DNA of 64,000 nucleotides, taken from Zoroaster sp. YZ-2022 (Eukaryota; Echinodermata; Asteroidea; Forcipulatida; Zoroasteridae). The DNA lies in contig CM055823.1 of NCBI GenBank assembly GCA_029582265.1, positions 27,640,569 to 27,704,568 on the forward strand. Direction: 5' to 3'. The position numbers and the translations under genes are program-made. The stretch's first letter is position 1. Each line of letters opens with the position of its first letter. Positions 29,371 to 60,872 of the stretch are shown here, in pieces. The notes under the pieces were generated by a model. That model was not told the origin of the DNA, did no database searches, and saw nothing but the letters and a program-made list of their open reading frames with translations.

Positions 29371-29374
29371 TTAA

Positions 29375-34440: not shown

Positions 34441-34458
34441 TGAATCATGATATGAACA

Positions 34459-36690: not shown

Positions 36691-36713
36691 TGAATCACGA
36701 TATGAACATTTCA

Positions 36714-39811: not shown

Positions 39812-40018
39812 GTGTTGTGGCAATATCCACCTCCTCCAATACAGTGTCATCACTTTCTTCATCCACCTTATCCTCGTCCTGTTCCAAAGGGAATGAGCAC
39901 AGTCGAGGGAAGGGCGGCCGGGGCTGCGAAATCAAAACCAACGGCTCACTGCAGGAGCTCAGTAAAGCGGTAGAGCAGAGCCTGTTGGCGACATGCGTAG
40001 GAAGTATCGCAGAATTAG
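39812..40018 (+). CDS. ABTB3: ABTB-family exon 1 (first visible)
   Basis: The acceptor is 'ttttctttgccaacag' and the donor is 'ttag' followed by gtgaga. The exon enters in phase with two bases of a split glycine codon and leaves with one base. It encodes a serine-rich stretch (VVAISTSSNTVSSLSSS), a lysine/glycine-rich part, then ELSKAVEQSLLATCVGSIAEL, which is the strongly conserved block of ABTB2/ABTB3 ahead of the ankyrin region. The serine-rich part is not conserved in vertebrates. Reading on past the donor stays open for 25 codons to TAA at 40093, but family comparison puts the splice at 40018. At least one upstream exon must exist. Confidence 0.92.
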
Positions 40019-40599
40019 GTGAGAACGGCGGAAGAGATTACAGGAAATTGTGGTCAGAACTTGGGATCATGTACCAACAGTTCTTGAATGTGTAAATATT
40101 TTCAGTCAAAGCTTGACGAGAATCACGTAGAAGGATTTTATTTCTTTATTTTTTGTGTGGGATATTTTGCATCAAACAATTTCTCATGTATACCAGTATT
40201 TTTTAAATAATGGGCCGTGCCATATTGTGGATTATAAATATATACACATTTCCAAGAAGGAAAAACAAAAACCGCAACATACGCAATGAGTAATAATTTT
40301 GCAATATGTGTGCACACTATGAGTGCATGGATTGTTCAGTCATGTTAAACAAAAGTGCACACGTCCGTATGTGGCATGTTGAAAAACCATTAATTAATAA
40401 ACCTGAGTTTATGGGAGTTTGCTTGCATCGTTGAATTTTATAGTCTTTTAGCCAAATTGCGTACTATTTTCTTTACAAGCTTCTATTTATTTGAACAGCC
40501 CCATACTCTTTTTTTCCCTCTGGTTCATAGATAATTATATTCAAGGACGGATCAAGGGGGAGGGGTCAAAGGGGGCCATGGCCCCCCCCTAAAAAAAAT

Positions 40600-40793
40600 G
40601 TTTTATCAGAAATTTGAACAGTGTTCTGCCCTTCAAAGAGGTTCTCAAGACCTATCTTTTCCTCAAATCATAGCTGGTTTGTCCCTCTTTCTTTTGTCTT
40701 CTTGGTCCCTTTTCCTTTCTTTGTTATAGCGCCTTGTGTCCTTTGGTAATAATTTGGTGCTCTATAAATCCAGTTATTATTATTATTATTCTA
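40600..40793 (+). mobile_element. LINE 3' end in intron 1
   Basis: Encodes VLPFKEVLKTYLFLKS, the C-terminal motif of a CR1/L2-type ORF2. It is followed by 'tatagcgccttgtgtccttt', 'ttggtgctctataaatccag' and a (TTA)n tail. A very short 5'-truncated insertion in the same strand as the gene. Confidence 0.78.
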
Positions 40794-40939
40794 AAACTTT
40801 TGTTTTAGATTCGCCGTTTGATTATATTCTCATTTGTTTTTAGTTTACTATTTTTCATTTCTATATTATTGAATCTTTTCTCAACTATACGTATAGAAAT
40901 AAATATGACATTGAATTGAATGAGACTTTTAGACACAAG

Positions 40940-41229
40940 CCCTCCTACACATGGAGGCCACTCCGATCCACTAAATTCTGTTCTTAAGCAACCTTCAGTA
41001 CATACATGTACAAGCCTGCTGTCCTTTCCAAGTAATCTTACAAAATCAACTGTGTGCCACCCAAGGCCACTGTAAATGTTTGAACATATTAGTATGGCCT
41101 GCAATGTATCGATGGGAGACAACTTTACCCTGCAATCTCAATGGTAACCATAGGAGGCCACTGGCAACAGCTAATGGCTTGGAGTGGCCTGAATGGGTTG
41201 TTTCAAAAATTGCACTGATTGTAGGAAGG
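40940..41229. mobile_element. CCCTCCTA-ended element, single-unit form, intron 1
   Basis: Starts ccctcctacacatggaggcc and ends attgtaggaagg. It matches 18719-19304 along its length, including 'tacatacatgtacaagcctg' and 'ggccactggcaacagctaat', but has only one copy of the internal unit that is tandemly repeated there. Confidence 0.8.
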
Positions 41230-41365
41230 TTAAAGTACAACAGATTACTAGTTCTTTTCCTATTGTTCTCAATATCATGTGCTTGCTCAGAACTATGTTA
41301 ACAATGGGAAAAGGAGTTGAATTGGAGTTGAATGGTTGAATTGAAATTAATTTGCCTCTGTCCAG

Positions 41366-41558
41366 GTGATCTGGTGTGCCGAGCGATGCACTACCAGCAA
41401 GGAAAGCGGAAGATCCCGAGCAACCTGAATGGCCGACAAAGCACGACGTGGTCACCCAGTGCTCTGCACACGCTGTTCTACTACATGCGATGTAGTCAAC
41501 TGGAGTATAGCGACAACCCTAATGTTGATCCACCAGTCATTCAACTCAACCCGGAAAG
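41366..41558 (+). CDS. ABTB3: ABTB-family exon 2
   Basis: Acceptor 'ttgcctctgtccag', donor 'ggaaag' followed by gtacgc. The exon completes a glycine codon shared with exon 1 and ends with two bases of an arginine codon (phase 2). It encodes DLVCRAMHYQQGKRKI, then TTWSPSALHTLFYYMRCSQ and NPNVDPPVIQLNPE (residues about 71-133). DLVxRAMHHxQ and ALxTLxYFxxCPQME are conserved blocks in vertebrate relatives, which makes the assignment secure. The frame joins exon 3 to give the family motif [13 protein letters not shown]. Confidence 0.95.
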
Positions 41559-41654
41559 GTACGCCTGGAGAAACTCTTTTTCCCCCCAAAAAAAATTGAA
41601 ATTTTAATTGACAGTTTTTTAATGTTAATTTGTTTACTGCCCAGCTTGTGTCAG

Positions 41655-42130
41655 TTAAAGGGACAATATCAATCAATATGGCATGAAATTGGAGTGCTAA
41701 TTTTAGAGTAACTCAGTGACTGAAAATAATATCCCACATAAGGTCATATTACCGTTGCTGCTGTGTAATTGAGCCAGTAATTTTCAGTCACTGTGTTCAT
41801 CTTAAACTAGGACACCGATTCCATGCCCTGTTGAAAGTCTGCTGTACAATACAATGAAGGCATTTATATAGCGTTCTTACACAAACGGTATCACAGCGCT
41901 TTACAGTGAGATGCAAGTACAATTTAAAAATACACAGTGCCTAAAATAAATGAGTCTTGAGAGATGTTTTAAATTGACTCAATGAAGAAGCATGACGGAT
42001 ACCAGATGGTAGCTCATTCCAAATGCTGGGTGCAGCAGTATAGAAACCCTTGTTAGCCGCAGTTAAATGTGTAGTTGGCTTTTTGAAGATCCGGGAATCA
42101 GAATTTGAACGGTGTGATACTGTCCTTAAA
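41655..42130. mobile_element. MITE family B interrupted by a LINE, intron 2
   Basis: Left end ttaaagggacaatatcaatc, family body through 'cctgttgaaagtctgct' to about 41842, then foreign DNA. The right end 'gtgatactgtcc' plus ttaaa resumes at about 42113. A further isolated end, 'cgtgacgatattgtccc', occurs at 42243-42259. Confidence 0.85.
41843..42112 (-). mobile_element. 5'-truncated LINE, same family as 30881
   Basis: The minus strand encodes RSNSDSRIFKKPTTHL, AAPSIWNELPSGIRHASSL and FKTSLKTHLF, then the 3' part 'ttatataaatgccttcattg' and a short tattgta tail. It is about 95% alike to the 30881-31494 copy by eye and also sits inside MITE family B. Confidence 0.87.
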
Positions 42131-42285
42131 ACATTTAAATTAATAACTGCCATGTCAAAAACATTAATTGTGCAAGTGTATGTATTGTATTGTAAGTACC
42201 TGTATTATGAACAAGTAACTTGACTGACTATGAACAAGTATCGTGACGATATTGTCCCGTTTATACCGAAGTTACCAACAAATGA

Positions 42286-42498
<213 letters not shown>

Positions 42499-42609
42499 TA
42501 AAAATATAACGACAGGGTTTTTCGCAGAAGAAACACAAAATACAGAACAAGTTTGTAGGCCCTCAGAAGCTTTTTTCATAATTTAAGAAGGAATTCATTT
42601 GTCAACGAA

Positions 42610-43294
42610 TTAGGCCGTTTGTTTTTTATTACTTGGATTACGGATTTGTAAGCTACAAAAAATGAGCGGGGATCGGGGAAAAAAAAAAAAAAAAAAAAAA
42701 GAAAATGATCGGGATTACGGAATTCCGAGCTCACGAAATCGGGCGGGGCGAAAAAAAAAAGAAAAAAAAAATACCGAAGGCACGCAGGCGGCTTCTAAAA
42801 CACGTACATTATACACAATTTATGTAGACAAAAGCAGAAAGTCACTGAATGAATGTCGCGAGTGTTTAGGCTTAACAAAATGTTCTGTTTCCGGTTTCTG
42901 ACCGACCCTAACTTTACGCCGCGACCCTAAACAAATTCGCACACAGACCATTTGTTGACACAGCAATCGATTGCATGAGTTTGGGCCGTGAGGTCAAGTC
43001 GCGCGATGCACGTACATGTAGTTGTTACTAAATGGCCAATGTATGCACTTGGGCAAATAGTATAGTCTATAAACGGACTCGCACTTTTGTACGTGAATGC
43101 ATAACATTGGTCTGGTTTCCATCATACATCGGCCGCGATTTTTTTCTCCGTTCACTGGCTCACGGTACGTGTACACATTTACTGTACATGTATTGTAGGG
43201 ATCTTGTTGTATTTGAAGAAAATGTGATCTAAAAGTATTGTTTTGTACACGATGGTGTTTTGTACGCGATCGGTGGCACTGTTGTAAGTGTTGT

Positions 43295-43335
<41 letters not shown>

Positions 43336-43437
43336 AAAATTTGATTTTTCGGGCGGGGATTTTTTTAATTTTTTTCAGAAACGCGATTTTTTCGAGCGGC
43401 GATTCCGTAATCCAAGTTATTAAAAAAACATGGCCTT
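42610..43437. mobile_element. inverted-repeat element (family J), intron 3
   Basis: Ends 'attacttggattacggattt' and the inverted 'gattccgtaatccaagttat' are followed by ggcctta/taggcc. Inside the left arm lies a poly-A run, inside the right arm a poly-T run of about 34 bases (43299-43332), both next to a gcgggg motif. The poly-A and poly-T runs could pair in a hairpin. Short lysine-rich and phenylalanine-rich frames here are artefacts. Confidence 0.75.
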
Positions 43438-43905
43438 AGTATAATAAAATTATTGTTTCAAATGAGCAAAGCAGAAAATACTGTAACTTGAGACTTCATT
43501 AGAAAAAAAGGTAGGAATATTTCTTTATGCCAAACCAAACATGATGGGTTTGTTTCAGTTTGATTTTATTTCTGTAAATCTCATTTTTATAATTTTCCAA
43601 AAAAAGAATGATTTCAAAGATTGCAGATGCTGATTTGAATGATATTTTTCTGTTAACGACACTATGTATCAACCCTAACTCCCTAGACAACAAAGGCAGT
43701 TGGAGGATTTTGAAGGATTTTTTATTGTTCAGTAACAATGCTTAGGGAGTTAGGGTTAATAACCTGAAATTACGTATAAAAACTGACATTGGTTGGTAGT
43801 GTAATGTATATCAAAAAAATTAAGCGTAATCGTAATTACCAATGTTGTACCTTCCCTTTACATTTACAAACAGATAAGTTATTTTTAAAATGTACACTAC
43901 GTAAT

Positions 43906-44314
43906 TAAACTTGGGCGTTAACACGATAATATAGAATATCGTGATAACTTTTTATTCGATTATGATATCGAGAACCTTCTTAAGTTATCAAGATATCGGA
44001 AAATCGCGATTAAAAAAATATGTCGCGATTAAAAACAAACGCCATTGTGAGTCAAGTCAGAAATTCCATGAAACAAAATTAGAACAGTCTTTTCAGCTTT
44101 TGGAAGTGAGAAACAAAAGCGAACTACTTCAGAAGTACATACATGCTCTGCAAATGAATTTGGGATTTATTGTGATGCTTGTAGAGGGGTATATACATGT
44201 ACCTGTAGTTATCGGCTCTAAAGCAATCATGCATGAGTGAAAAAATAATCGCGATATTAATCAAAAATCACGATATATGTTTTGGATGAAAAAAATCGAT
44301 ATTGCCCAAGCATA
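43906..44314. mobile_element. hAT-type MITE (family A), intron 3
   Basis: Ends taaacttgggcgttaacacg and 'gatattgcccaagcata', with the usual 'gctctaaagcaatcatgc' segment in the right half. The 8-bp duplication is no longer clear. The overlapping 99-residue frame is a shadow. Confidence 0.85.
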
Positions 44315-44345
44315 TAAGTTATAAATTGAGTAATATATGTAGCTT

Positions 44346-44466
44346 TGACTGTTTGCGGTGACACTGTGAAATTCTCAAATTAAGTAGTAATTAGTTCTGA
44401 ATAGAACTGGAGGTTACAACTCGACATTTCGATCAGTATGCTCTGATCGTCTTCAGGGGAAATAAT
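44346..44466. mobile_element. MITE family D, half copy, intron 3
   Basis: Contains 'gactgtttgcggtgacac', 'gttctgaatagaactggagg' and 'gatcagtatgctctgatcgt'. The opposite arm is absent. Confidence 0.72.
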
Positions 44467-45660
44467 AAATTGAATTCAGAGGTTTTTGCATATAAAGAAT
44501 GTTGTTTGGGATACACATTTCCATCTGTGACACTAAAGGCAAAGATTTTTTTCCGGAAAATGATAATTCACAAATTGAGAATAATATAAAGAAACGGCTG
44601 TTACTGGGAGCAGGCAGGGGGCCGGCAGGTGGTGATTTTTACAGTGCTATATCGCAACCGCTAGGTGTGATAAATAGCGGCATCTCCCAGTGTGCCTGCA
44701 GCTCGGGCCGTCCGTTGTCAGTACATCATCACCGCAAATAGAAATCACGCAAGAGCGAGTGTGGACAATGAGCAGATGAATGATTACGTCCAATCGGTCA
44801 TGTGCAGCAAGAAGCGGCTTTTTTTTTTTCCTTTTTGTGTTTTCCTTTTTGTGTTTTCAACACTTGCCGCACGTATGAATCACATGACTACTATAGAAAC
44901 ACTTACAAATGTTAACTATTCAAGATTACATTATTCAGCTTGGCACGTATTCTACGTGTTTGCAACACTGACTGTGTGTTGTTTTTTTCAAGACTGAAAC
45001 AATATATTTATTGTGTGTTAAAATTGTCACTATCTGCCAGCATGCTTTGATACTTTGAAGTTTACACAAACAAACAAGAGGTCGTTGGTTCAATTTTGCT
45101 TTATTCACACCAAATAATATATGCAGACCACTTTAGTAAACTGACATAAAAAGTACAAAAGCATGGTCAGTGTGGTTATAAGAATGATTTACCATATCCG
45201 GGTGGTCAAGGTCAGTTTGGCAGTAATTTTATCACTTGGCTTAAATTAATTACACAAATCCGGCTTGAGCAAGTGCGCTGTGGTACGTATTTGGAACAAA
45301 GTCAATACTGGCTGGTGGTTCACTTCAAATGCTTCATTCAGTACCAAACTACCAATAAAATCCATAAAAGTAATATCCCTCAGTGAGCAATTTGGGTTGT
45401 ACTGTATTAAAGCAAAATACACAACAAAAACACAATTCACAAAAAAAAAAATCCCAATTCGCCTTATTCACAATAAGGGAAGCCGTCTTTAACTAACCCC
45501 CCATATCCGCCGGATCCCGGCGGATAGTCTCCCACTTTTTAATGAGCTCATTATTTTCGGGTCAATGCACATAAGTGCAATACGTCAGACGAATATGCAT
45601 GAGTTCTACTCAGACAGGCTTCACAAAGGCACCAATTATCGACAGTGTAATCTGGGGATA
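44467..45660. other. intron 3 sequence, nothing recognised
   Basis: Non-coding, with a poly-T patch near 44820-44831. The 80-101 residue frames here lack known motifs and family comparison leaves no gap in the protein that they could fill. Confidence 0.55.
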
Positions 45661-45663
45661 ACT

Positions 45664-46070
45664 CGGGAAAAAACTCGGGACGGGAACAACTTACGGGGTA
45701 GGAAAATAAACAGGACTGAGAAATAACCCGGGACGGGAAAATAAACGGGACTGAGAAATAACCCAGGACAGGGAAATATTACTGGCAGGAAAATAAACGG
45801 GACTGAGAAATAACTCGGGACGGGAACAAATTACGGGGCAGGAAAATAAACAGGACTGAGAAATAACTCGGGACGGGAACAAATTACGGGGCAGGAAAAT
45901 AAACAGGACTGAAAAATAACCCGGGACTGGAAAATATTACTGGCAGGAAAATAAACGGGACCGAGAAATAACTCGGGACGGGAACAAATTACGGGGCAGG
46001 AAAATAAACAGGACTGAGAAATAACCCGGGACGGGGAAATATTACTGGCAGGAAAATAAACGGGACGGTC
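45664..46070. repeat. minisatellite, units about 52-54 bp and shorter, about eight copies
   Basis: Alternating units of 'cgggacgggaacaaattacg' and 'gggaaatattactggcagg', each followed by 'aaaataaacgggactgagaa'. It runs directly into a family H hAT fragment. Open minus-strand frames are repeat artefacts. Confidence 0.9.
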
Positions 46071-46071
46071 A

Positions 46072-46425
46072 TTACCCGGTTCCATTTTTCGGTTCCAATT
46101 ACCTGTAAACGACTTTTTAAAATTCAGACTTAACATTTGAGCGGTGCGAACAGAAATCTGTGACTCTTGAACAATGTAATGTTTAACACTTTTACAGACA
46201 ATTATCTTTAAATTCAAGAAATTGCACTCCAATAAAGAAAAGATCGATTTAAGTATGGTATCCTCTGTATTATAAAAGTCAATTTGTTACCATTTACAGT
46301 ACATGTATTTGTACACCACCGGAGGCATGTTTTCAACAAAAATGAAAACGGGTATCCGGGTATCCGAAGTTTCCTGATTTCGGGTATCCGGTTCCAAAAA
46401 TATCCGAAAATGCACAGCCCTATTA
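46072..46425. mobile_element. hAT-type element family H, truncated, intron 3
   Basis: Contains 'ccggttccatttttcggttc', 'aattacctgtaaacgacttt', the conserved middle 'ctgtgactcttgaacaatgt', and the complete right end 'aaatgcacagccctatta'. The left terminal sequence is replaced by the minisatellite. Confidence 0.75.
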
Positions 46426-46651
46426 CGTCAGCCCATAAGTGTGACAGATCCCTTGTCTGGCAAAATGGAAATTATAGGAGCAATTCGTCTTATTCATGAT
46501 AAATACAAAAGTGATGATGCTGTAATTCTCACAACCACACTCTGTAGCTTACATGCTGCATGCACCAGCGATATTGCCCAATAATCTGATAGTTCCAAAG
46601 AAAAGTTCTTTCCTGACATAAGGAATAAATAAATGGATGTATTTCCATTAA

Positions 46652-47020
46652 CCCTCCTATAGGTTTAACACTCAAAGACACTCAAAATGTGTATGTCTCT
46701 CTTAACCCATTGACTTTGTGCAGTGCACTCAAATACACTCAAAATTTGTATGTAACTCCCAACCCATTGACTTTGTGCAGTGCACTCAAATACACTCTAA
46801 ATTTGTATGTAACTCCCAACCCATTGACTTTGTGCAGTGCACTCAAATAAATGCAAGGTCATGTGGCTAGGAGGTAAAACTAAAACCACTCAACAGTACA
46901 TACACAGCTCTGTGACTCTGTGGTTTGACCTACTAATTGGCAATGCACCCAAAAATACTCGAGTGACTGTCTGTGAGTGCCGTGCTGACTGGGCCAAATT
47001 TCAGCATGGGCATAGGAGGG
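46652..47020. mobile_element. piggyBac-type element with minisatellite core, intron 3
   Basis: Begins ccctcctatagg and ends cataggaggg, flanked by exact TTAA on both sides (46648-46651 and 47021-47024). TIRs starting CCC together with TTAA flanks fit the piggyBac superfamily. The core holds three tandem units of about 57-60 bp with 'cccattgactttgtgcagtg'. Non-coding. Confidence 0.87.
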
Positions 47021-47333
47021 TTAATGTACTTAAAAATTAATGACATTTGAAAGCAAGATTGCCCCTTCAGACAGACAAAATTAGGCAGGTTACTATAATG
47101 AGCATGTACAGGTACACAACCTCTTGTAGTCTGGGAATAAGACTTAAGATGGCTAACTCATGAATCAGGTGAGTTTGCAACACAGAAGTTCTATTTGAAA
47201 TTAGCATGACATACATGTACACACACAAAAATAGAATTCTGATAAAAAAATATTCTGCTATTCAACATTTTTGATCAAAATCGGTCTCTCTTTTCATGCC
47301 ATTATACAACTGTATCAAATAGCATTTTCTTTT

Positions 47334-47490
47334 AAGTAAGACTAATTGCGGTGACACCATGTGAAATTCTCTACCGAGTAGTAATTAGTTCTGAAAAGAA
47401 CTGGAGGTTACAACTGAAGAGAGAATTTCACATGGTGTCACTGCAATTAGTCTTACTTAACCTCTTCACCATGCAAAGCTACAAGTTTTA
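47334..47490. mobile_element. MITE family D, full copy, intron 3
   Basis: Inverted arms 'taagtaagactaattgcggt' and 'actgcaattagtcttactta' around 'gttctgaaaagaactggagg', followed by the shared flank 'caccatgcaaagctacaag'. Confidence 0.85.
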
Positions 47491-47701
47491 CCCAGCATTT
47501 TCTTTTGCCTGTTTACAAAGTCTCACTGGGAATTTCCATCATGTCCTCACCATAAATATAAAACTAATCACGCCAGGGAAGACTTTGACAAATGTGTAAA
47601 TCAAAAGCTTACATCCACCCAGCCATGCAGTTGTAATTAGTACTTGCTACCTCTATGGCATGTTTATAACTCAGACTATTCCATTTTGTTTTAAAGGAAG
47701 G

Positions 47702-48199
47702 TAGGGCTGTGCGTTTTCGTATATTTTTGCAACTGGATACCCGAAATCAAGAAACTTCTGATTCCCAGATACCTGTTTTTATTTTCAATTTCAACAACAC
47801 TTTTTTATTAATAGCGCAATAATTAATGTGGACTTTCCCCGTTACAGTATCCCCTATATTAGCAGCTCATGGCACACACTCCCAGTGCAGGCATAAAGCA
47901 TGCACTAATCCAATAACTGCAAACAATAGGCAAACATTGTATCACACTGAATCAGTTGGAGGAAAGTGTGTGCAAACCGTCTGTAAAATACTATAAAGGC
48001 TTTATCTAGTGTAATCTCTTGACAAAATAAAATTGTTAAAGTGTAAATATTACATTATTCAAGAGCCACAGATTTCTGTTGGCACCGCTCAAATGTTAAG
48101 TCCGAATTTTAAAAAGTTGCTCACGGGTAATTGGAACCGAAAAATGGAAGCAAGTAATGACAGTTTCAGTCAGGTATCCGGGTACCCTGCACAGCCTTA
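47702..48199. mobile_element. hAT-type element (family H), full copy, intron 3
   Basis: Ends tagggctgtgc and gcacagcctta, with a perfect 8-bp target duplication aaggaagg (47694-47701 and 48200-48207). The 498-bp interior has no transposase. It ends only 32 bp before another hAT-type element. Confidence 0.92.
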
Positions 48200-48231
48200 A
48201 AGGAAGGCATGACATTTTTTTTGGTAACATA

Positions 48232-49068
48232 TAGGCTTGGGCGATACCGATTTATTTTATTTTATTTTTTATTTATTTATTTTTTTATCCATGATATATC
48301 GCCAAACATATATCGCGATTTTCGATAATATCGCGATTATTTGTTTTTCATTCACGCATGATTGCTTTAGAGCCAATAAGCTTTTGTTTCTCACTTCCGG
48401 AAGCTGAAAAGACTGTCCTAATTTCATTTCCATGGAACTTTTGACTTGACTCACAATGGCGTTTTTCTTAATCGCGATATATATTTTTTAATCGCAATTT
48501 TCCAATATCTCGATAGGGTAGAATGTCATATCTGGCCGCCACTATTTTTCATTAAATATAACCAATAATGTAATCTTACCTACCTGGTAAGGTGGAGAAC
48601 ATGTGGATGATGATGGACATATACTTCAAATTATTCCAGGATATTTATTTCATGAAAAATCAGGCATTTTTGGTATACGATGACTTCCTCAGTCATGTCA
48701 GTCTGATCTTGTAAACTCCACAATTAGTGACCAACACAGTCATTGTACATGCGTAGTGGCAACTATAATAGGATCCTTCTATTTTCTGAAGGGGAGGATT
48801 TTTTTAGAAGGGAAATCAAGTCCGAAAACCATCATAAAAGTGGATTTTAAAGATAGTTTTCGCTTTCTGTACCACCAAAAATCGATAGAATGATTTTTTA
48901 ACTGGTTAGTGGTTGCAAAAAAAATCCAAAAAAGCCCTTAAAAAGTGGCGGCCAGATACGACATTCTTTCCTCTCGATAACTTGAAAAGGTTCTCGATAT
49001 CGTAATTGAATAAATAAGAAAAAAAGGTATTGCGATATTCAATATTATCATGTTATCGCCCAAGCTTA
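48232..49068. mobile_element. hAT-type MITE (family A) with a nested hAT-type element, intron 3
   Basis: Ends taggcttgggcgata and tatcgcccaagctta in spirit (right end 'gttatcgcccaagctta'), with a perfect 8-bp duplication gtaacata (48224-48231 and 49069-49076). A different element occupies 48516-48971. Without it the host is close to the normal 416-bp length. Confidence 0.93.
48516..48971. mobile_element. nested hAT-type MITE
   Basis: Ends gggtagaatgtcatatctgg and the inverse of 'ccagatacgacattctttcc', with the shared inner part ccgccact. It is flanked by a perfect 8-bp direct repeat tctcgata (48508-48515 and 48972-48979), which is family A sequence. It is 456 bp and non-coding, and is the only copy in the window. 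Confidence 0.92.
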
Positions 49069-49076
49069 GTAACATA

Positions 49077-49931
49077 CGTTCATTTCAACCCTCTTGATTT
49101 CAAGAAATAAACTAATCAGTGATAGCTTCATCACAATAGGTGCTCACACACGTTTTTTCAGTTTTTTCATCAATTCATTGTTAACAATTCCTGTTTTCTC
49201 TAAGGTGAAAGCACTTCAGATGAAGTAATCTTTTCAGGATGATTAATAAGCGTACACCCAGTAAGTTTTTCGATAAGAATTTGTCAAAAGAATGCACGCT
49301 AGATCAATTTCTGACAATTTGCAAATGAATGATTAGATCCAGCCAGTCGTGCGGTTGTAATTAGTCATGTAGCTTCTTCTGCGGCAACTGTTCATATCTT
49401 TCTTTATCTCTTGGATACCGTAAATATGTCTACGCTAGAGCAGACTTTGACAATGAACAAATGAAATATTATACGTGCTATGAGTTGTGCAGTGATTCAT
49501 GTAATTAATACGTGTAAAGTGGTCCTGCCAACACGGCCTTATAACGCCTTTCATGGTCAGAGGGATGTAGAGTAACACAATATGCACCTGGCCTTCACAG
49601 TGAAATGACTCCGACTATTTAAAAAAAAAAATTTGTAACAAATTATTAATGTCAAGGCAAAAATAATTTGAAATCGACTTTGATATGACCTTCTTGAATA
49701 AAGTCATCATTATTAAGTAATAAAATTGGGAAGTTTTTTCTGTAAAGATAACTGTTTTCACCTCTACTACCAAGTATAAATTCTGTTTTATTGTTTTATT
49801 GTTTCACAAAATACGTAGGTTCTGTCAAAAGAAAGTAAATAAAAAAAAATACATATTCAGTCAAGCTTTTTAATTATTTCCAGGTCATTACTAGCATGTT
49901 TAAACTTTTATTATTTGTGTTTGGATAGTGA
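49077..49931. other. intron 3 sequence, nothing recognised
   Basis: AT-rich non-coding DNA with no repeat boundaries or exon that I can support. Confidence 0.5.
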
Positions 49932-50387
49932 ATATGACATAAAACACAATAAAGGGGGCCACTTTGCATCCGTCACGTTAGCAGTTTTTCCAATGGTTGT
50001 TATTTATATTTAAGTACCTGAAACTGACCAAAAAGTGTTTCAACATGTGAATGGACATGCAGGCTTATACTAGAACTAATTTGAGTTGATTTATTTTATT
50101 TTAAAAAATTTTATTTTATTTTTTTACCCTCAAATTTCCATAAAAATTGGACGGAAAAGGTTACCTCACTTTTCCGTCCATTTATTGATGGAAATTTTAG
50201 GATAATTTAAAAAATAATAGTAATAATCAACTCAAATTACCTTTAGGATAAGAATGCATGTCTATTCAAATGTTGAAATTCTTTTTGGGTGGTTTCAGAT
50301 ATTTAACAAAAAATTACAACCATTAGAAAAACTGCTAACGTGACGGTAGGAAAGTGGCCCCCTTTATTGTGTTTTATGTCATATGCA
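49932..50387. mobile_element. long-hairpin MITE, intron 3
   Basis: Arms start 'atatgacataaaacacaata' and end with the inverse; each continues through 'aaagggggccactt' and 'gtcacgttagcagtttttc'. The centre again pairs ('ggacggaaaaggttacctca' against 'cttttccgtcc'). Almost all of the 456 bp can fold into one stem. No coding frame. Confidence 0.87.
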
Positions 50388-50802
50388 ACTTACAAGGATA
50401 AATGATGAAATCTAAATTTTCCCCATTTTTATATTAAAAGGGAAAATATGTTAATGATGGCAAAACTGCTAATACAAGTTTGCTTATTCTCTTGGTTTAC
50501 AACCAGCCTGTGAAAAGTTATTCTGCTGTGTCGAAAAAATAATTTGAGAATTTGGGAGACTGGTCCCCTGTCTGTATCCTATCAAGGATAGAGACAGGCT
50601 CTGAGCGTACCACTCAATTGATTTCATTGGATACGTTGCGCGGAAGATCGTCTTGTTTTGACTCGGAGGATCGCGTGCTAGCTACCAACCAAGGTCAACG
50701 TTATAACATGGTGGCTGTGTGCGTGCACGGTATTTGGCCGGTATTTGGCCGGTATTTGGCCAGTATCTGGCATAATTCACAAGCCTCAAAGCATGATGTC
50801 GG

Positions 50803-51240
50803 ATCTTTTTTTATTTTTTATTTTAATCAGTTTTATTTAAACAGGGTAGCCTCATCAGTTAAAAAAACTGCTATCCCTGAAGGCCCTGTATAAAAAGAGT
50901 TAACACTTTAACATTGTAAAACCACTAACAACTTAAGGAAATTAAGATTAAGATAAATTAATATAAAGTAAAAACTATATTATATATACATGATAAACAA
51001 CAAGATAACTTGCAAACATCAACGGAAAATAAAGATTAAATAAAAAACCACCAATTTACCGTAAAAAATTATTACAAAAATTCAGACCAGATAAAAATAT
51101 AAAAAGTCTTAACCAGAAGAAAACACAAAACTGTATACATAAAACCAAATTCAAATTCAATAAACGAAATTAATCAAATGTAAAATACAAACGGCATGAA
51201 ATCTTCAGGCTAGGAAAGATAACTCTTTAATAAATCCTAA
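50803..51240 (-). mobile_element. LINE 3' untranslated remnant, intron 3
   Basis: 'ttttatttaaacagggtagc' and 'aactgctatccctgaaggcc' resemble the sequence at the 3' end of the LINE at 57878 ('tttatttacccagggtatgc' and 'ttccattggggccctgcgt'). It is followed by an A-rich body. Only the 3' region seems present. Confidence 0.6.
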
Positions 51241-51252
51241 ACGAATGTTATT

Positions 51253-51376
51253 TAAGTAAGACTAATTGCGGTGACACCATGTGGAATCTCAATTGAGTAG
51301 TAATTAGTTCTGAAAAGAACTGGAGGTACAACTCGACATTTCGATCAGTATGCTCTGATCGTCCTCAGGAGAATGC
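51253..51376. mobile_element. MITE family D, half copy, intron 3
   Basis: 'taagtaagactaattgcggt' through 'gttctgaaaagaactggagg' to 'gctctgatcgtcctcaggag'; the second arm is missing. Confidence 0.78.
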
Positions 51377-51796
51377 CGGACTCTGGAAAATGCTGCTGCT
51401 TAAGTAGACTGCTGGAGGATCATCCCATGAATGGATGCTGGAGGATTAGTTCGTTGAGGCGCGCAGGCGGGAACTGTTGAGACTAGGATCCTAGGGGTTG
51501 GGGGAGAGGAGTGTGTGCTCACTGAACTGAATTAGTTGTTAACAAGCACAGGGGGAAGGAGGGTGGTTGACTTAGGATATAGGAGATCCCTCAGTCTGGG
51601 GTGGGTTATGGACTTTGGATGGTATTTAATTTTCCTTAATATAAAGTGATAGCACCTCAGACAAAAATATATTGTAGGGAAGATTGATGCTGTCAGCAGC
51701 TTTATACCAAGTAAGTTTTACATTATATTTTTACAATTTTGGTTATTTTTGAATGTTTATTGTTTAGATTTGTTTATTATTTTTGTTTTGTTTTAG

Positions 51797-51962
51797 TACG
51801 GATGAGGTCGTGTGCTCCTCCAGACATCTTAATGCTCACCAGTCATCATTACAGTTCCAGCAAGACTTGGGCTTCCGGATGCTGGCATGCGGCAGAGCAG
51901 ACCTCGTCTCCGAAGCCATCTTGCTCTTGGGTAAAGATGGAATCAACTCAATCAGTGAGCAG
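51797..51962 (+). CDS. ABTB3: ABTB-family exon 4
   Basis: Acceptor 'ttgttttgttttag', donor 'gagcag' followed by gtgtgt. The first base completes a serine codon (AG/T) with exon 3, and the exon ends in phase 0. It encodes TDEVVCSSRHLNAHQSS, then LQFQQDLGFRMLACGRADLV and SEAILLLGKDGINSISEQ (residues 186-240). KFxQDLGFRMLxCGRxDLV is a strong family word and begins the ankyrin region. Exon 3 and 4 are separated by 9.3 kb filled mostly with transposons. Confidence 0.95.
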
Positions 51963-52052
51963 GTGTGTACAATTGAATTGAAGCAGTGTGATAATTTCTC
52001 AGGCCCGGATTATTTGTTTATTTTATTAAATTTTTATTGACACAGGATAACT

Positions 52053-52408
52053 TTAATAATAATAATAATAATAATAATGGAGGCATTTTTAAAGTGCTCT
52101 TACACGAGGTATCACAGCGCTGTACATTATTACCCCTACTCATCAGGCGCATAAATCATTCCTGAAACCATCTCAGCTCCTTGGGAATATACAGCTCAAT
52201 TGCTGCCATTTCAGCGCATATGGGCTAATCAAACACAACAACCAACTCTGCCCTCACAGGTACCCATTTACTCCTGGGTGGAGAGAAGCAATTATGGTAA
52301 AGTGTCTTGCTCGAGGACACAAGCACCACGGTTGCGGTTGGGATTCGAACCCACATTCTGACACAAATTAGAACACAAATCCAATACACTAAACTGTTCG
52401 GTCATGGC
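52053..52408 (-). mobile_element. tRNA-derived SINE, copy 2, intron 4
   Basis: The minus strand carries the A-box-like 'gaccgaacagtttagtgt', B box 'gggttcgaatccc', 'caagacactttaccataatt' and the tail 'gtgatacctcgtgtaagagc' ending 'aaaaatgcctcc' and (ATT)n. It is full length and antisense to the gene. Confidence 0.9.
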
Positions 52409-52863
52409 ACTCCCAGTTTGACAATTTCCCAGTCTGACAAGCCCAACATTAAAATTTTATGAATTTTGCTCCGAGATGTGCGAGTGTATTGAAAGTTGAA
52501 ATTATCTGACTATCTGAAAATTTACCCAGCAACCAGGCTGGCAGCAAGAAATCGAGATTGGAAGTTTAGATCGGTCCATTAGCCAATTGACCTACCCCCT
52601 GGCAGGTGGGCAGGTGTTAAAGGGACATTATAACATCAATATGTACTTCTACTAGTTTGTTAATTTACTCTCTTTGAATCAAGATATACAATAACAAAAC
52701 AAATCTGTGAAAGTTTTTCACGAGAAAATAGTGAAAATTTGTGTGTGCCATAATCATCATAATTTACACTATGTTAAAAATCAGTCAATTGGTTTATTTT
52801 TGAATTACCAATTTTTATACCTTATCTTTAAGTGCATTAATCTGTCTTGTTTTTTGTTACCAG

Positions 52864-55304
52864 GGCTTAACTCTTATGTTGTTGTTTTTATTTACCATTC
52901 AGGGCTTAACTCTTATGTTGTTGTTTATATTTACCATTCAGGGCTTAACTCTTATGTTGTTGTTTTTATTTACCATTCAGGGCTTAACTCTTATGTTGTT
53001 GTTTTTATTTACCATTCAGGGCTTAACTCTTATGTTGTTGTTTTTATTTACCATTCAGGGCTTAACTCTTATGTTGTTGTTTTTATTTACCATTCAGGGC
53101 TTAACTCTTATGTTGTTGTTTTTATTTACCATTCAGGGCTTAACTCTTATGTTGTTGTTTTTATTTACCATTCAGGGCTTAACTCTTATGTTGTTGTTTT
53201 TATTTACCATTCAGGGCTTAACTCTTGTGTTGTTGTTTTTATTTACCATTCAGGGCTTAACTCTTATGTTGTTGTTTTTATTTACCATTCAGGGCTTAAC
53301 TCTTATGTTGTTGTTTTTATTTACCATTCAGGGCTTAACTCTTATGTTGTTGTTTTTATTTACCATTCAGGGCTTAACTCTTGTGTTGTTGTTTTTATTT
53401 ACCATTCAGGGCTTAACTCTTATGTTGTTGTTTTTATTTACCATTCAGGGCTTAACTCTTATGTTGTTGTTTTTTTTTACCATTCAGGGCTTAACTCTTA
53501 TGTTGTTGTTTTTATTTACCATTCAGGGCTTAACTCTTATGTTGTTGTTTATATTTACCATTCAGGGCTTAACCCTTATGTTGTTGTTTTTATTTACCAT
53601 TCAGGGCTTAACTCTTATGTTGTTTTTATTTACCATTCAGGGCTTAACCCTTATGTTGTTGTTTTTATTTACCATTCAGGGCTTAACTCTTATGTTGTTG
53701 TTTTATTTACCATTCAGGGCTTAACTCTTATGTTGTTGTTTTATTTACCATTCAGGGCTTAACTCTTATGTTGTTGTTTTTATTTACCATTCAGGGCTTA
53801 ACTCTTATGTTGTTGTTTTATTTACCATTCAGGGCTTAACTCTTATGTTGTTGTTTTATTTACCATTCAGGGCTTAACTCTTATGTTGTTGTTTTTATTT
53901 ACCATTCAGGGCTTAACTCTTATGTTGTTGTTTTATTTACCATTCAGGGCTTAACTCTTATGTTGTTGTTTTATTTACCATTCAGGGCTTAACTCTTATG
54001 TTGTTGTTTTATTTACCATTCAGGGCTTAACTCTTATGTTGTTGTTTTTATTTACCATTCAGGGCTTAACTCTTATGTTGTTGTTTTATTTACCATTCAG
54101 GGCTTAACTCTTGTGTTGTTGTTTTATTTACCATTCAGGGCTTAACTCTTATGTTGTTGTTTTATTTACCATTCAGGGCTTAACTCTTATGTTGTTTTTA
54201 TTTACCATTCAGGGCTTAACTCTTGTGTTGTTGTTTTTATTTACCATTCAGGGCTTAACTCTTATGTTGTTGTTTTTATTTACCATTCAGGGCTTAACTC
54301 TTATGTTGTTGTTTTTATTTACCATTCAGGGCTTAACTCTTGTGTTGTTGTTTTTATTTACCATTCAGGGCTTAACTCTTATGTTGTTGTTTTATTTACC
54401 ATTCAGGGCTTAACTCTTATGTTGTTGTTGTTGTTTTTATTTACCATTCAGGGCTTAACTCTTATGTTGTTGTTTTTATTTACCATTCAGGGCTTAACTC
54501 TTATGTTGTTGTTTTATTTACCATTCAGGGCTTAACTCTTATGTTGTTGTTTTATTTACCATTCAGGGCTTAACTCTTATGTTGTTGTTTATATTTACCA
54601 TTCAGGGCTTAACTCTTATGTTGTTGTTTTTATTTACCATTCAGGGCTTAACTCTTATGTTGTTGTTTTTATTTACCATTCAGGGCTTAACTCTTATGTT
54701 GTTGTTTTTATTTACCATTCAGGGCTTAACTCTTATGTTGTTGTTTTTATTTACCATTCAGGGCTTAACTCTTATGTTGTTTTTATTTACCATTCAGGGC
54801 TTAACTCTTGTGTTGTTGTTTTTATTTACCATTCAGGGCTTAACTCTTGTGTTGTTGTTTTTATTTACCATTCAGGGCTTAACTCTTGTGTTGTTGTTTT
54901 TATTTACCATTCAGGGCTTAACTCTTACGTTGTTGTTTTTATTTACCATTCAGGGCTTAACTCTTACGTTGTTGTTTTTATTTACCATTCAGGGCTTAAC
55001 TCTTATGTTGTTGTTTTTATTTACCATTCAGGGCTTAACCCTTACCTTGTTGTTTTTATTTACCATTCAGGGCTTAATTCTTGTGTTGTTGTTTTTATTT
55101 ACCATTCAGGGCTTAACTCTTACCTTGTTGTTTTTATTTACCATTCAGGGCTTAATTCTTGTGTTGTTGTTTTTATTTACCATTCAGGGCTTAACTCTTA
55201 CCTTGTTGTTTTTATTTACCATTCAGGGCTTAATTCTTGTGTTGTTGTTTTTATTTACCATTCAGGGCTTAACTCTTACCTTGTTGTTTTTATTTACCAT
55301 TCAG
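52864..55304 (+). repeat. satellite made of the exon 5 splice-acceptor junction, about 63 units
   Basis: Tandem units of 39 bp (some 38 or 36). Each reads ggcttaactcttatg, then ttgttgtttttatttacc, then attcag. The array begins after an acceptor-like 'ttttttgttaccag' at 52863 and ends at the real acceptor of exon 5, whose first bases are ggcttaactcctcttatgtt. The unit therefore contains the exon start (three bases shorter), a branch-point-like TTAAC, a pyrimidine tract and a CAG. Copies with atgttg, gtgttg, acgttg and accttg are scattered. In the last 300 bp two variants alternate. Confidence 0.95.
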
Positions 55305-55394
55305 GGCTTAACTCCTCTTATGTTTGCCTGCTCTAGAGGGGACGAGGCCATGGCACAGATTCTCATCAGAAATGGTGCCGACATTGACCAAGCT
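55305..55394 (+). CDS. ABTB3: ABTB-family exon 5 (ankyrin repeat)
   Basis: Acceptor 'atttaccattcag', donor 'gct' followed by gtaagt. It has 90 nt, phase 0 at both ends. It encodes GLTPLMFACSRGDEAMAQIL and IRNGADIDQA (residues 241-270), a canonical ankyrin repeat (G-TPLM-A---GD----Q-LI--GADI). The start GLTPLM corresponds to GMTPLM in vertebrate relatives and exon 4 ends SEQ, so the biologically expected acceptor is the last one, at 55304. Any of 19 upstream acceptor copies (from 54566) would also stay in frame. Confidence 0.95.
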
Positions 55395-55781
55395 GTAAGT
55401 CTTTGCTGTGGGTCTGTTTGTAGGTCTGCATTTACCTGTTCTTGTATCTGATCGTCAATAGTTGTAGTCGAGTTCTTTGTCATGAGTACTAGAAAAATTT
55501 ACTTGAGTACGAGTTTGATGACCACAACTCTGCTGACCGATGTCTATCTGCATGGCAATCACAGAAACTTACTTAATAATGCCCCTTGAGCGATTTCGCC
55601 CACCCTTGACAGCATAGAAAACTTGACCATGCGACAACCTTTTGTTTGATGGAGGAGTATCATTATTGGTTCAGTTTACGGTTTGCATTATTAAACACAA
55701 TGTGGTTTGATTCTCAACTATGGCAGAGTGAGATTGTGAACCTTTTATTTCCTTGTTAACGTAATTCTTGTATCTTTTCAG

Positions 55782-55883
55782 GTTCCGAGTCAGCACACCA
55801 GTTATCCGTGTGTTCATCCTGCCATTAGGCATTGGACAGCTCTCTCCTTTGCAGTAATAAATGGAAACGTGTCGGTGGTCCAG
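55782..55883 (+). CDS. ABTB3: ABTB-family exon 6 (ankyrin repeat)
   Basis: Acceptor 'cttgtatcttttcag', donor 'gtccag' followed by gtaagt. 102 nt, phase 0 to 0. It encodes VPSQHTSYPCVHPAIR and HWTALSFAVINGNVSVVQ (residues 271-304). The P-VHP--RHWT-L-FAV--G---VVQ pattern is a family hallmark and forms the next ankyrin repeat with exon 7 supplying LLLDAGA. Confidence 0.96.
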
Positions 55884-56095
55884 GTAAGTTGAAGTCAAAA
55901 GAAGTTTTGATCTGTCAATTGCCGTCTTATTGGCAGTGTGTTTGGTATTCTCAAAAAGCATTGATGTTCTCTGTTTTACAGGAAATTAATAACTGGTGTA
56001 AAGTTGATGATGGTGAAAGCATCCCTTGAAATCCTTCAGTTTGAGGCTTTTCAGAAATGTCAAATTTTATTCTCCAAATGCCCACTTGAATTTAG

Positions 56096-56341
<246 letters not shown>

Positions 56342-56393
56342 TAAATCTGAATTTGGGGCAGATGGATTCGTTCTTGTGTAAAGTACCTTCCCT

Positions 56394-56549
56394 TTAAAGG
56401 GGCATTATTGTCATGATCAGAGCAGACTTTCGACAGGGCATGGTAATATGATCTTATCACGCCCTGTCACTGAGTTCATCTAAAACTAGGATACCGATTC
56501 CATGCCCTGTCGAAAGTCTGCTGTGATCGTGATGATACTGTCCCTTTAA
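56394..56549. mobile_element. MITE family B, shortened, intron 7
   Basis: Left tttaaaggggcattattgtc, right 'gtgatgatactgtcccttta'. The centre is deleted ('atggtaatatgatcttatca' then 'cactgagttcatct'). It lies between exon 7 and exon 8 and spares both splice sites. Confidence 0.85.
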
Positions 56550-56859
56550 GTCTGCTGAAACCCGATCACGACCTCAAACTTTTGCAGTGTTTCTGTAAAA
56601 AAAAATGCACATACAGCAAACATATGCGTAAGATAGCCGCTCCATCACAGTCCTCGATCTTAACTGCGGCCACTGTGGCCATGGCTGTGGTGCCCCTCCG
56701 AGTTGGCCGTAATGCCCCCTTTGGTTGGCCTTGAAATTTTGAGGCATCCAAGGCCAAAGTGGCCGTGCCCTCTCAATCCTTAAGGTCGAGGCTTGCCATC
56801 ACAAAAGTTTTTTTTCTGTTAGTAAATGGTTGTCCTGAAAGCAAGTGATTATAATTTAG

Positions 56860-57024
<165 letters not shown>

Positions 57025-57432
57025 TAAGAGATGAGGTCACAGCTCTGGTCAGCCAATAACAGCAGAGAATCGATGATTTTTAGATCAATTTGTAAAAGCT
57101 TTTGACCATTGGTTATTATTTTGTTACTAATTCTATGACGACTGTGATAATTTTTCAGTTTTCAATTTAGGAAAGAGTGCAATTTTTCAAATGAGATTTT
57201 TCACAAAATAATTGACTGAAACATTTTATTATGAAACAGTCTTTTAGTGTGATTATTTGACCAGCATAGGATTTATGATCCTGGGTCATTTAGTTGTTTA
57301 TTTCATTACTGTTTAAATATGCTTCAATAAATTATTTGGTGAACTGACTTATTTCAAGTACTTGACTTTCTTTAAAAAACAATTTAAAAAATAAATAAAT
57401 AATTAAATGCGGTGGAATCTTCTCTTTGTCAG

Positions 57433-57598
57433 AAACATCTTGAGAAAACTTCTTGAGCAGCCGCGGAGTGTGAAGTCAACAGACATATTGTCCCTGGAGG
57501 AGATCTTAGCGGAAGGGAACGACCCCGAACCTCTTTTGCCTAAAATGCCCAAGCTTAGAAGAACAGGCAGTAAAAGCAAGATAACACTGGCCCTACAG
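57433..57598 (+). CDS. ABTB3: ABTB-family exon 9
   Basis: Acceptor 'cttctctttgtcag', donor 'ctacag' followed by gtatgt. One base completes arginine; the exon ends in phase 0. It encodes NILRKLLEQPRSVKSTDILS, then LEEILAEGNDPEPLLPKMPK and a basic stretch ending LALQ (residues 380-434). N-LRKLL-QP and DILSLEEILAEG are nearly invariant in the family. A SINE starts about 11 bp after the donor. Confidence 0.96.
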
Positions 57599-57609
57599 GT
57601 ATGTGAATG

Positions 57610-57877
57610 GGGTGTCACGGTCGAGCGGTTTAGTGCATCGGATTTGTGTTCTGATGGCTGAGTCGTCAGAATGTGGGTTCGAATCCCAACCACGACCGTG
57701 GTGCCTATGTCCTCGAGCAAGACACTTTACCATAATTGCTTCTCTCCACCCAGGGGTAAATGGGTACCTGTGAGGGCAGAATTGGTTGTTGTGTTTGATT
57801 AGCCCTATATGCACCAAAATGGCAGCAGTTGAGCTGTATACTCCCCAGGGAGCTGAGATGGTTTCAGGAATGATTTA
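57610..57877 (+). mobile_element. tRNA-derived SINE, copy 3, 5' part, intron 9
   Basis: Sense orientation. A-box-like 'cggtcgagcggtttagtgc', B box 'gggttcgaatccc' (about 57675-57687), 'caagacactttaccataatt', to 'gtttcaggaatgattta', where the LINE at 57878 interrupts it. It begins immediately behind the exon 9 donor. Confidence 0.9.
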
Positions 57878-60465
57878 TTTATTTATATTTATTTATTACA
57901 TTTATTTACCCAGGGTATGCCCAAACAGTTAAAAACTGGTTTCCATTGGGGCCCTGCGTATGTCAACTTTAAAAATTAAAACATACAGAAAATACGACAA
58001 TCCACGTAAAAAATAACAATTAGATACAACATCACAGAAGTAATTAAAATTGTACATAGATTAAGATCAACAATTATAAGCTGTGTGAAATCTTAACATA
58101 CAAATTTGGGCACCAACATACGCCGAAAGTACGGGAAGGCGAAAACCTTCTTGAGGAAAAAGCGAGAAATTCCCTTCCGGCTCCGAATTGCGGCAACCAA
58201 GTTTATAAACTCCGTAAGTCAGCACAGAAATAATTAATTTGTATTGACAGCGTTAAGTACATAAAAGAATGCCTTGTATACAGAATAAACATTATTGGAT
58301 GAACGTTTCTAAGTTCAACTTTGAACGAACCCAGTGAATTTACGGCTCTTAGTTGGGCATTCAAGTTATTCCATATATGCACCTTTTACAGCAAAGCTCG
58401 TAAAGTAGGATTCCTTCCATAAAGGAACCCCAGTGCCGAGTCAGTGGATCGTCTCGTTTCACGAATCTGTGTAAGCGGTGTGTGAATAGATTAGTCATGT
58501 ACAGAGGACCCATTTTGTTTATGCATTTGTAAACAAGAACAGCTTTTTGTACATAACTATTTCAGAAAATGAGAGCCAATTAAGTTTAGCAAACATTTCA
58601 GATGATGGTGTAAGAAAGTCACACTTCAGAATTATCCATGTGCCCTTTTCAGGCATTTGTTAAGAATAACATTGTGAGATATGCATCGATCTCCCCAAAC
58701 AGTACAACAGTAATCTAAGGATGGCTTAACTAAGCTTACAAACAGGATTTGCAGGCAGCTTTGTGGAACACAATCGCGAATTCTATTTAACATACCCAGT
58801 TTAGACGACCTTAGTCGGCGTATTCAACGTGAGGAGTCCAACTTAAAGTTTCATCAATAATAACACCCAAACATTTACATGAATTCACCTTTACAATTGG
58901 ACCATCAGTCACTTACATTAAGGCCAGTGTTTGAAACCTTTTGCCTGGATCCAATGAGCATGGATTTAGTTTTGGTGGCATTTATTGTAAGTTTGTTTTT
59001 GACGCACCAATCATGGATTCTGACTAGGGCTATATTCAAGATATTCTCTATTTCATTAACACTGGAGGAACTACAAGTTAGTGTAGAGTCATCTGCATAC
59101 ATGTACATGAACAAACTGCAGTTTGGGGGGATACAAAGTGGAAGATCACTAGTATAAATAATGAATAACAGAGGGCCTAGGATTGAACCCTGCGGCACGC
59201 CAACATTTAATGGCAAGGCCTTAGATATATTACCATCGATTTTCACAGATTGACTACGTTCACTCAGATATGATTTAAACCATTGAATTACAGAAGTTGA
59301 CATATTCAACTCTTTAAGTTTCTCTAGCAGAATGTTATGATTAACAGAATCGAATGCTTTACTGAGATCTATAAAGACTGTGCCTGTCATTTCCCCACGT
59401 TCCATAGCTTGAAAACATTTGTTCGTTATTAGTCATGTAGGGTACTTTCAGTCGAGTGTAATGGCCTAAATCCCAATTGGCAAGCAGGAATAAGATTACT
59501 TTCATCGAGGTAAGAATAAATAGCTGAATGTACCCATCTTTCTAAAATCTTCGAGATAATCGGCAGGATGGAAATAGGCCGATAGTTACTTGTGTTACAT
59601 TTGTCTCCTCCCTTATGAATAGGTGTGACCAGAGCTTGTTTCCAATCCTTAGGGTACTGGTCACATCTTATCGATAAGTTAAAAATGTGGGTTAATGATC
59701 TAATAATATACGGGGAAGCTATTTTAATCATTTTAACACTGATGCCATCAGGACCTGTTGCTTTCCCGACTAACATTGATGCTATTTGTTTTTGCACATA
59801 ATCTTCTGTTATGTCGGGCAATATGCATTGCTCATAGACTGAGTTATGAAGAGATGAATCGATATTGTCGGCTCACTTCAAAATCACGGTGGCATTACTA
59901 CACACACGTTCCCCAATTGTGGAAAAGTTAACCATTAAATGTATCAGCGATGTCAACAAGATCCTCGATATTTTCACCATTCGCAGAAAGGATAGAATTT
60001 GGAGTAATTCTGTTTTTGTTAGGAAGCACCTCTTTTAGTTTTTTCCACAGCATAGATGAATTACTTTTATTGTCCTCAATGGTATAAAGTATTCACTTTT
60101 CGTCGCATTTGCGGATTTTCTTAATAACCGTGTTCCGCAACTTTTTTGTATGCATCCCAATCATTTTGTGAACCTGAACGTTTTGCGATTTTATGTGCAG
60201 GTCACGTTGTCGCATAAGTTGAAGAATGTCTCCATCAAGCCAGGGCAAGTGAGTCACCCGAACACGTTTGATTTTATTGGTGCATGGTGGTTAATTATAC
60301 TCATAAACAGGGAGTGCCATAGGGACCATGCTTCATTAACATCATGACAACTGAGTACATGATCCCATGGTGCGTTAATGAGGTCTTCTTTGAAAGCATC
60401 ACTATCTATATCTTTAAAACATCTGAAGTTAATTGAATGTGTCTGAAGTTAATTGAATGTTAATT
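57878..60465 (-). mobile_element. CR1/L2/Jockey-type LINE, 5'-truncated, nested in the SINE, intron 9
   Basis: The SINE sequence stops at 'atgattta' and resumes at about 60466, so this 2.6 kb is an insertion. Its 3' end, on the left, is (ttta)n-like. The minus strand then carries a long 3' untranslated region, the reverse transcriptase (58905-59821) and an upstream linker with WKKLKEVLPNKN. The endonuclease domain is missing, so it is 5'-truncated. Confidence 0.87.
58905..59821 (-). pseudogene. non-LTR reverse transcriptase, frameshifted
   Basis: Two minus-strand frames, 59821-59429 and 59405-58905, are offset by a frameshift. In order they show GPDGISVKMIKI, NYRPISILPIISKILER, GTVFIDLSKAFDSVNH (first catalytic Asp), VPQGSILGPLLFIIY, YADDSTL (catalytic DD) and the NATKTKSMLIGS region, with CLGVIIDETLSW just beyond. 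All core motifs of a LINE reverse transcriptase are present, but the break and further stops make it non-functional. The protein would copy its RNA at a nicked target site. Confidence 0.93.
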
Positions 60466-60546
60466 TATGTGTCTGATGAGCAGGGGTAATAATGTACAGC
60501 GCCTTGAGCACCAGTTTGGTGGATACGTGCGCTATATTAGTTCCAA
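60466..60546 (+). mobile_element. SINE copy 3, 3' part
   Basis: Continues the SINE of 57610 with 'gtctgatgagcaggggtaat' and 'aatgtacagcgcc'. The tail then reads 'ttgagcaccagtttggtgga' and 'tacgtgcgctatatt', unlike the tail of copies 1 and 2, and resembles the LINE tail at 29745-29866. Confidence 0.78.
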
Positions 60547-60623
60547 ATTATGTCTCTATATCTATTATATAAATTACCTTTTAAATACGTATTTTCCCCC
60601 TCCTCCACCCCTTTAAATCCTAG

Positions 60624-60872
<249 letters not shown>

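Follow-up and report, generated by a model that had tools for sequence, protein, structure and literature searches.

A tandem array of 63 splice-acceptor units stands at the intron 4–exon 5 boundary of an ABTB2/ABTB3 (BTBD11) homologue in the sea star Zoroaster sp. YZ-2022, and, judging from the DNA sequence, it is probably a mirage-type minisatellite, which arose by tandem duplication of the intron 4–exon 5 junction and is removed with the intron, mostly by use of its last AG. Mirages, as the available text of two amphioxus papers describes them (PMC3087553, PMC3902484), are minisatellite-like repeats of intron–exon boundaries, either 5' or 3', which carry AG or GT in many copies and lie beside the authentic exon. 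The window, i.e. the whole stretch of DNA analysed, has a length of 64,000 nucleotides (assembly GCA_029582265.1, contig CM055823.1, positions 27,640,569 to 27,704,568 of the forward strand), and the positions given here are those within the window. Features of the array and its host gene are collected in Table 1.

Table 1. Positions of the splice-site array and of the neighbouring parts of its host gene in the window
Feature	Position	Strand	Basis
ABTB2/ABTB3 (BTBD11) homologue, 10 exons in the window	39812..60866	+	In-frame gene model, homologues
Exon 4, ends ...SISEQ, phase 0, donor CAG/GTGTGT	51797..51962	+	Gene model, donor list, homologue alignment
Unique part of intron 4, with an acceptor of its own at the end	51963..52863	+	
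Splice-site array, 63 units: exon 5 start, TTAAC/TTAAT, T-rich tract and ACCATTCAG	52864..55304	+	
Last four units, two-unit pattern F-G-F-G	55149..55304	+	
AG needed by the canonical protein, acceptor 64 of 64	55303..55304	+	Gene model, homologue alignment
Exon 5, 90 nt, GLTPLMFACSRGDEAMAQILIRNGADIDQA, ankyrin repeat, donor GCT/GTAAGT	55305..55394	+	Gene model

The host gene and the array

The ten exons, each with AG before it and GT after it, join into one open frame of 514 aa; the gene model lacks the 5' and 3' gene ends, and exon numbers count only the exons within the window. The sequence marks the gene as a homologue of ABTB2/ABTB3 (BTBD11). Among the matches listed, the closest proteins are those annotated as BTBD11-like or ABTB2-like in the sea stars Asterias rubens (88.3% identity), Acanthaster planci (83.9%) and Patiria miniata (87.2%), and the more distant ones come from a crinoid (68.5%), urchins (65.0–67.6%), a hemichordate (63.2%) and Branchiostoma lanceolatum (58.2%); the homologue search used a length-extended query, and these identities are over the aligned window residues. 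By these values the window belongs to a sea star, probably other than the three named, and an amphioxus origin, which the mirages had brought to mind, was rejected. Pfam assigned ankyrin repeat families to the gene product, and the solved-structure matches listed (60 of 339) are ankyrin-repeat proteins by name or fusions with them, many of which are designed proteins. Pfam found no BTB domain in the 330-aa piece scanned, and the exons of the model do not extend to the region where the homologues have their BTB domain; the BTB-encoding part probably lies beyond the window. The translation of exon 5 opens with GLTPLMF, in frame with the nine other exons, and the residues encoded by exons 4 and 5 are contiguous in all 11 aligned homologues.

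When the array is cut at AG/GGCTTAA, its 63 head-to-tail units provide 64 AG acceptors, the first at 52863 and the last at 55304. Tandem Repeats Finder reported the repeat at 52861–55314 (period 39, 63.3 copies, 96% matches), which extends 10 nt inside exon 5. Both approaches uphold the count, coordinates and anatomy that an earlier note on this DNA had given for the array. Most units have 39 nt (n = 46), and the others have 38 nt (n = 13), 36 nt (n = 3) or 45 nt (n = 1); 13 sequence types are found among the 63. Types F and G take turns in the last six units, which contain the F-G pair three times. Every unit starts with GGCTTAA and ends with TTTACCATTCAG, and the AG is terminal in every unit.

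YTNAY is the branch-point pattern, and it is fitted by the TTAAC present in 60 of the 63 units as well as by the TTAAT present in the other three. From the candidate branch A to the final G of the AG the distance is 32 nt in 46 units, 31 nt in 13, 29 nt in three and 38 nt in one, and no further AG occurs between the candidate branch A and the terminal AG in any of the 63 units. At the sequence level, all units thus have the elements of a 3' splice site (branch-point match, T-rich tract and AG), as had been claimed from the first reading of this stretch. The criterion YTNAY is a loose one: the consensus unit has three extra matches closer to the AG, and when we compared it on simple sequence features with eight other acceptors of the gene, four of these (E7–E10) had no YTNAY within 45 nt.

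The 19-nt core TTTACCATTCAGGGCTTAA was found 63 times when up to three mismatches were permitted, and all occurrences are exact and inside the array, with none elsewhere in the window and 0.02 expected by shuffling. Constraint on this invariant core was considered and rejected, because a gap of this kind arose by chance in 6.6% of the simulations. Among the 44 array intervals of the window, which were merged by hand from 65 rows of Tandem Repeats Finder, only the splice-site array crosses an exon boundary; two others, 39744–39782 and the T-rich run 42287–42337, lie within 60 nt of an acceptor. Rfam gave no matches at gathering scores, and the scan for bacterial promoters and terminators, which is irrelevant to the array, found none.

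Origin and turnover of the array

The consensus unit and exon 5 have 17 nt in common, aligned with one 3-nt gap, and therefore the unit includes exon sequence, so that the earlier statement that it carries the start of exon 5 is sustained; the remaining 22–24 nt of the unit are intron-end-like. The unique part of intron 4 has its own acceptor at 52863, made up of a TTAAT located 23 nt ahead of the end of its AG, a T-rich tract and CAG. This first acceptor is within the unique intron, whereas the array itself supplies both the branch point and the pyrimidine tract for the last one; acceptor 52863 may be the original intron end. We compared the unique flank with the unit, and a resemblance as good was obtained in 26 of 400 dinucleotide shuffles and, in a second shuffle test, in 37 of 500, while such a score is reached in 0.3% of 17512 background windows. 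Of the ten intron ends scored, the unique flank and the T-rich one preceding exon 3 share the best raw score, and the intron end before exon 1 has a better z against the unit (2.3; 13 of 500 shuffles). Because the resemblance of the flank is weak, a derivation of the intron half from intron 4's own end is plausible and unproved. Older degenerate copies upstream of the array were not established, the second stretch considered there being matched by 153 of 400 shuffles.

In the simplest history, the array would have started with one duplication of the intron end together with the exon start, followed by the loss of 3 nt in the founder unit or their gain in the exon, and afterwards by amplification. 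The first acceptor would then keep the original intron end, the acceptor required by the protein would be an array copy, and the intron half of all units would have been derived from the end of intron 4 itself.

Identical units are adjacent 20 times against 11.9 expected, and 14 of 5000 shuffles reach 20. The thirteen units of 38 nt are confined to units 22–44, and none of 5000 random placings was as tight. The array has evolved in concert by these measures, and the grouping of its variants looks like ordinary repeat turnover, such as unequal exchange or slippage would cause.

Choice among the 64 acceptors

Only acceptor 64 (55304) gives the contiguous exon 4–exon 5 protein in the window, and the proposal that the array ends precisely at the genuine exon 5 acceptor is borne out, since this acceptor opens the 90-nt in-frame exon and the 11 homologues are contiguous at the junction. 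Between -186 and +7, acceptor 62 (55226) does not differ from acceptor 64 at all, and acceptor 60 agrees with 64 at every position from -108 to +7. Because of the identity between 62 and 64, signals located in -186 to +7 cannot discriminate between these two, and the sequence from +8 onward, the sequence farther upstream or the position must do so. From +8, the whole exon 5 and its GTAAGT donor stand behind acceptor 64, whereas more of the T-rich array stands behind 62 and 60; the longest purine run is 8 in exon 5 versus 4 in the array. A selecting role of RNA structure was rejected, because the last 255 nt of the array plus exon 5 do not fold better than shuffled sequence (z +1.82; 99 of 100 shuffles were at least as good). 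Recursive or nested splicing was rejected too, because the array contains no GTRAG.

According to the mirage explanation, the whole array would be transcribed and excised as intron, and the spliceosome would mostly take the last AG, because this is the sole copy with a full exon behind it (enhancers, the GTAAGT donor and exon definition); behind the other copies, a short exon piece would be followed by T-rich sequence. The array would be tolerated because the mRNA is not broken, and no benefit of the array is required; that regular splicing goes on undisturbed may be indirectly supported by the unbroken protein of the relatives. The question raised in the earlier note, how the last copy is chosen by the spliceosome, is a fair one, but it has a precedent: for duplicated beta-globin 3' splice sites, of which the first copy was followed by 14, 55 or 205 nt of exon, the available text of PMC5389562 reports that the distal copy was used exclusively and very inefficiently, with 55 and 205 nt as well as with 14 nt. 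For an influence of exon length on which site is chosen, the same text refers to Reed and Maniatis (1986), and in the part available this effect is absent from the splicing result of the paper itself. By analogy, these constructs favour exon sequence or position as what decides in the sea star, and they do not separate one from the other. The beta-globin construct, as described there, resembles the sea star array in having tandem identical 3' splice sites with an exon piece behind the upstream one (17 matching nt in the sea star), and differs from it in being artificial, with two copies, from a human gene and in vitro.

According to the abstract of PMC5389562, splicing is inhibited when two 3' splice sites are occupied concurrently, and therefore 64 sites might not be harmless. 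The array might act as a splicing brake: with many 3' splice sites occupied by U2AF, U2 snRNP and pyrimidine-tract binders, exon 4 would be joined to exon 5 more slowly, and the copy number would set the mRNA level or how often exon 5 is skipped. Besides the inhibition by concurrent occupancy, this would be in line with the presence of 64 sequence-complete sites in 2.4 kb and with the length of exon 5, because skipping of a 90-nt exon would preserve the frame. We nevertheless regard such a brake as rather improbable, because nothing in the present analysis indicates selection on the array and because mirages in amphioxus are thought, on the basis of Adh3 data and globin RT-PCR as given in the available text of PMC3087553, not to interfere with regular splicing. 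In a wider form, the array would be a copy-number dial: 64 near-identical sites would compete for U2AF and U2 snRNP, the array length would set the rate or inclusion of exon 5 or add variable in-frame hydrophobic repeats, and in several deuterostome phyla the turnover of boundary minisatellites might be a general means of altering splicing. This wider proposal is in our view unlikely. As for the in-frame repeats, upstream acceptors might be used at a useful rate, by which hydrophobic repeats of 13 residues (GLTLMLLFLFTIQ) would be inserted between the ankyrin repeats and the protein length would vary among individuals. In favour of this, 20 of the 64 acceptors (45–64, the canonical one included) keep the open frame through the exons in the window, with inserts of 0–738 nt. 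The other 44 acceptors, however, lead to a premature stop, for which reason a coding array was rejected as the main reading; 17 of the 63 units have a length other than 39 nt, six of the seven substitutions, tried singly, alter the peptide, and the insert peptide occurs in none of the 240 ABTB-type matches listed (two lists of 120), none of which is known from the source species. Regular insertion of such repeats thus appears most unlikely.

If the first acceptor, which is the nearest to the donor, were used instead, the mRNA would mostly carry premature stops and the allele would be weak or null. This acceptor lies in unique sequence, with a YTNAY match and a T-rich tract of its own, and its use leads to a stop; but the ten-exon frame is intact over the 514 aa, which suggests a working gene, and the exclusive use of the distal beta-globin site (in the available part of PMC5389562) is against it, so that we consider this very unlikely. 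An assembly artefact, with an inflated copy number or shuffled units, is extremely improbable: the length of the T run varies between units, as sequencing errors could produce, but the variants are clustered along the array, with the 38-nt units grouped as described above, and this argues against random assembly error. The explanation by a mirage that is removed with intron 4 accordingly keeps its preference among these readings.

Relation to known systems and other repeats of the window

The opinion in the earlier note that no satellite built in this way had been described does not stand, because mirages are known in amphioxus: Adh3 and the globins BflGb6 and BflGb9 bear them according to the available text of PMC3087553, and TnC and PGBD5 were added by PMC3902484, as far as its available text goes. 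The array of the sea star is like them in spanning the boundary, in having a unit composed of the exon start and an acceptor-like intron half, and in lying beside the authentic exon, since it stops at 55304 and exon 5 begins at 55305. The unit of 39 nt is inside the range of the Adh3 mirage, whose units of 10–72 bp show somatic instability (as cited in PMC3087553), and is shorter than the unit of BflGb6, for which the same source, in the part available, gives 150–160 bp with 6 and 3 units in two haplotypes. In contrast to these mirages, the present array belongs to a sea star rather than a cephalochordate and has 63 copies versus 6 and 3 in BflGb6. Every copy in the sea star is sequence-complete; for amphioxus, the available text of PMC3087553 notes that many mirage repeats could act as cryptic splice sites. 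Length instability of mirages has been described in amphioxus, whereas the array of the sea star is known from one haplotype.

Human IFI6 (6-16) has a splice-donor minisatellite (Turri et al., 1995), of which two downstream units serve as donors and three mRNA species result, according to the part of PMC4526556 available. This case and ours are alike in that minisatellite units are splice sites of their own gene, and differ in that the units are donors there and acceptors in the sea star. Tandem duplication can also give coding genes new splice sites, as when introns are gained from duplicated proto-splice sites (available text of PMC2891723; the model is also in PMC3087553). Compared with this process, what has been multiplied in the sea star is the end of an existing intron; no new intron is apparent, and the array is devoid of GTRAG. 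Searching the open-licence literature by titles and the beginnings of abstracts, we found no boundary minisatellite in echinoderms and no intron minisatellite in sea stars, the match for the latter concerning sea bass.

The array is therefore a clean case of an already known mirage kind, in a phylum that is new to such repeats as far as our search goes; relative to amphioxus, the other phylum, the 63 copies and the natural experiment provided by the matched acceptors 62 and 64 are new. It suggests that boundary minisatellites occur in echinoderms too, the searched print having them in amphioxus only, plus one human gene (donors). Choice between competing 3' splice sites has often been studied with two-site constructs. 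In the sea star, there are 64 natural sites, and one pair of them shares the same sequence for 186 nt on the upstream side and 7 nt on the downstream side, which keeps the nearby upstream signals constant. The roles of exon and position can be read from ordinary RNA-seq, and the array can serve as a system for testing how 3' splice sites are chosen.

Other repeats were found in the window, some of them in the introns of the same gene. A dispersed repeat of about 270–350 bp, which by eye looks like a tRNA-derived SINE, is present in intron 4 at 52072–52406, with copies at 29372–29717 and 57609–57878 that are 90% and 88% identical to it, respectively. Two arrays of an 81-bp unit occupy 33554–34466 and 36109–36703, and a 26-nt piece of this unit is found at 52665–52690 in intron 4, a short distance upstream of the splice-site array. 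The intron before exon 10 contains remains of a retroelement reverse transcriptase on the minus strand at 58908–59432 (Pfam RVT_1) and 59432–59872 (by eye), the best protein relative of which is 90% identical over 91%. About 600 bp past exon 10 of the ABTB2/ABTB3 homologue, a 14-copy array of a 64-bp unit is located at 61469–62377. An 83-copy array of a 24-bp unit (GTTTGCCAATACATATAGCTCTAG) at 1–2021 reaches the edge of the window, a perfect TTA run of 61.7 copies lies at 28349–28533, and the three-copy arrays at 24521–24698 and 39346–39517, with units of 59 bp and 58 bp respectively, look by eye to be related and in opposite orientation.
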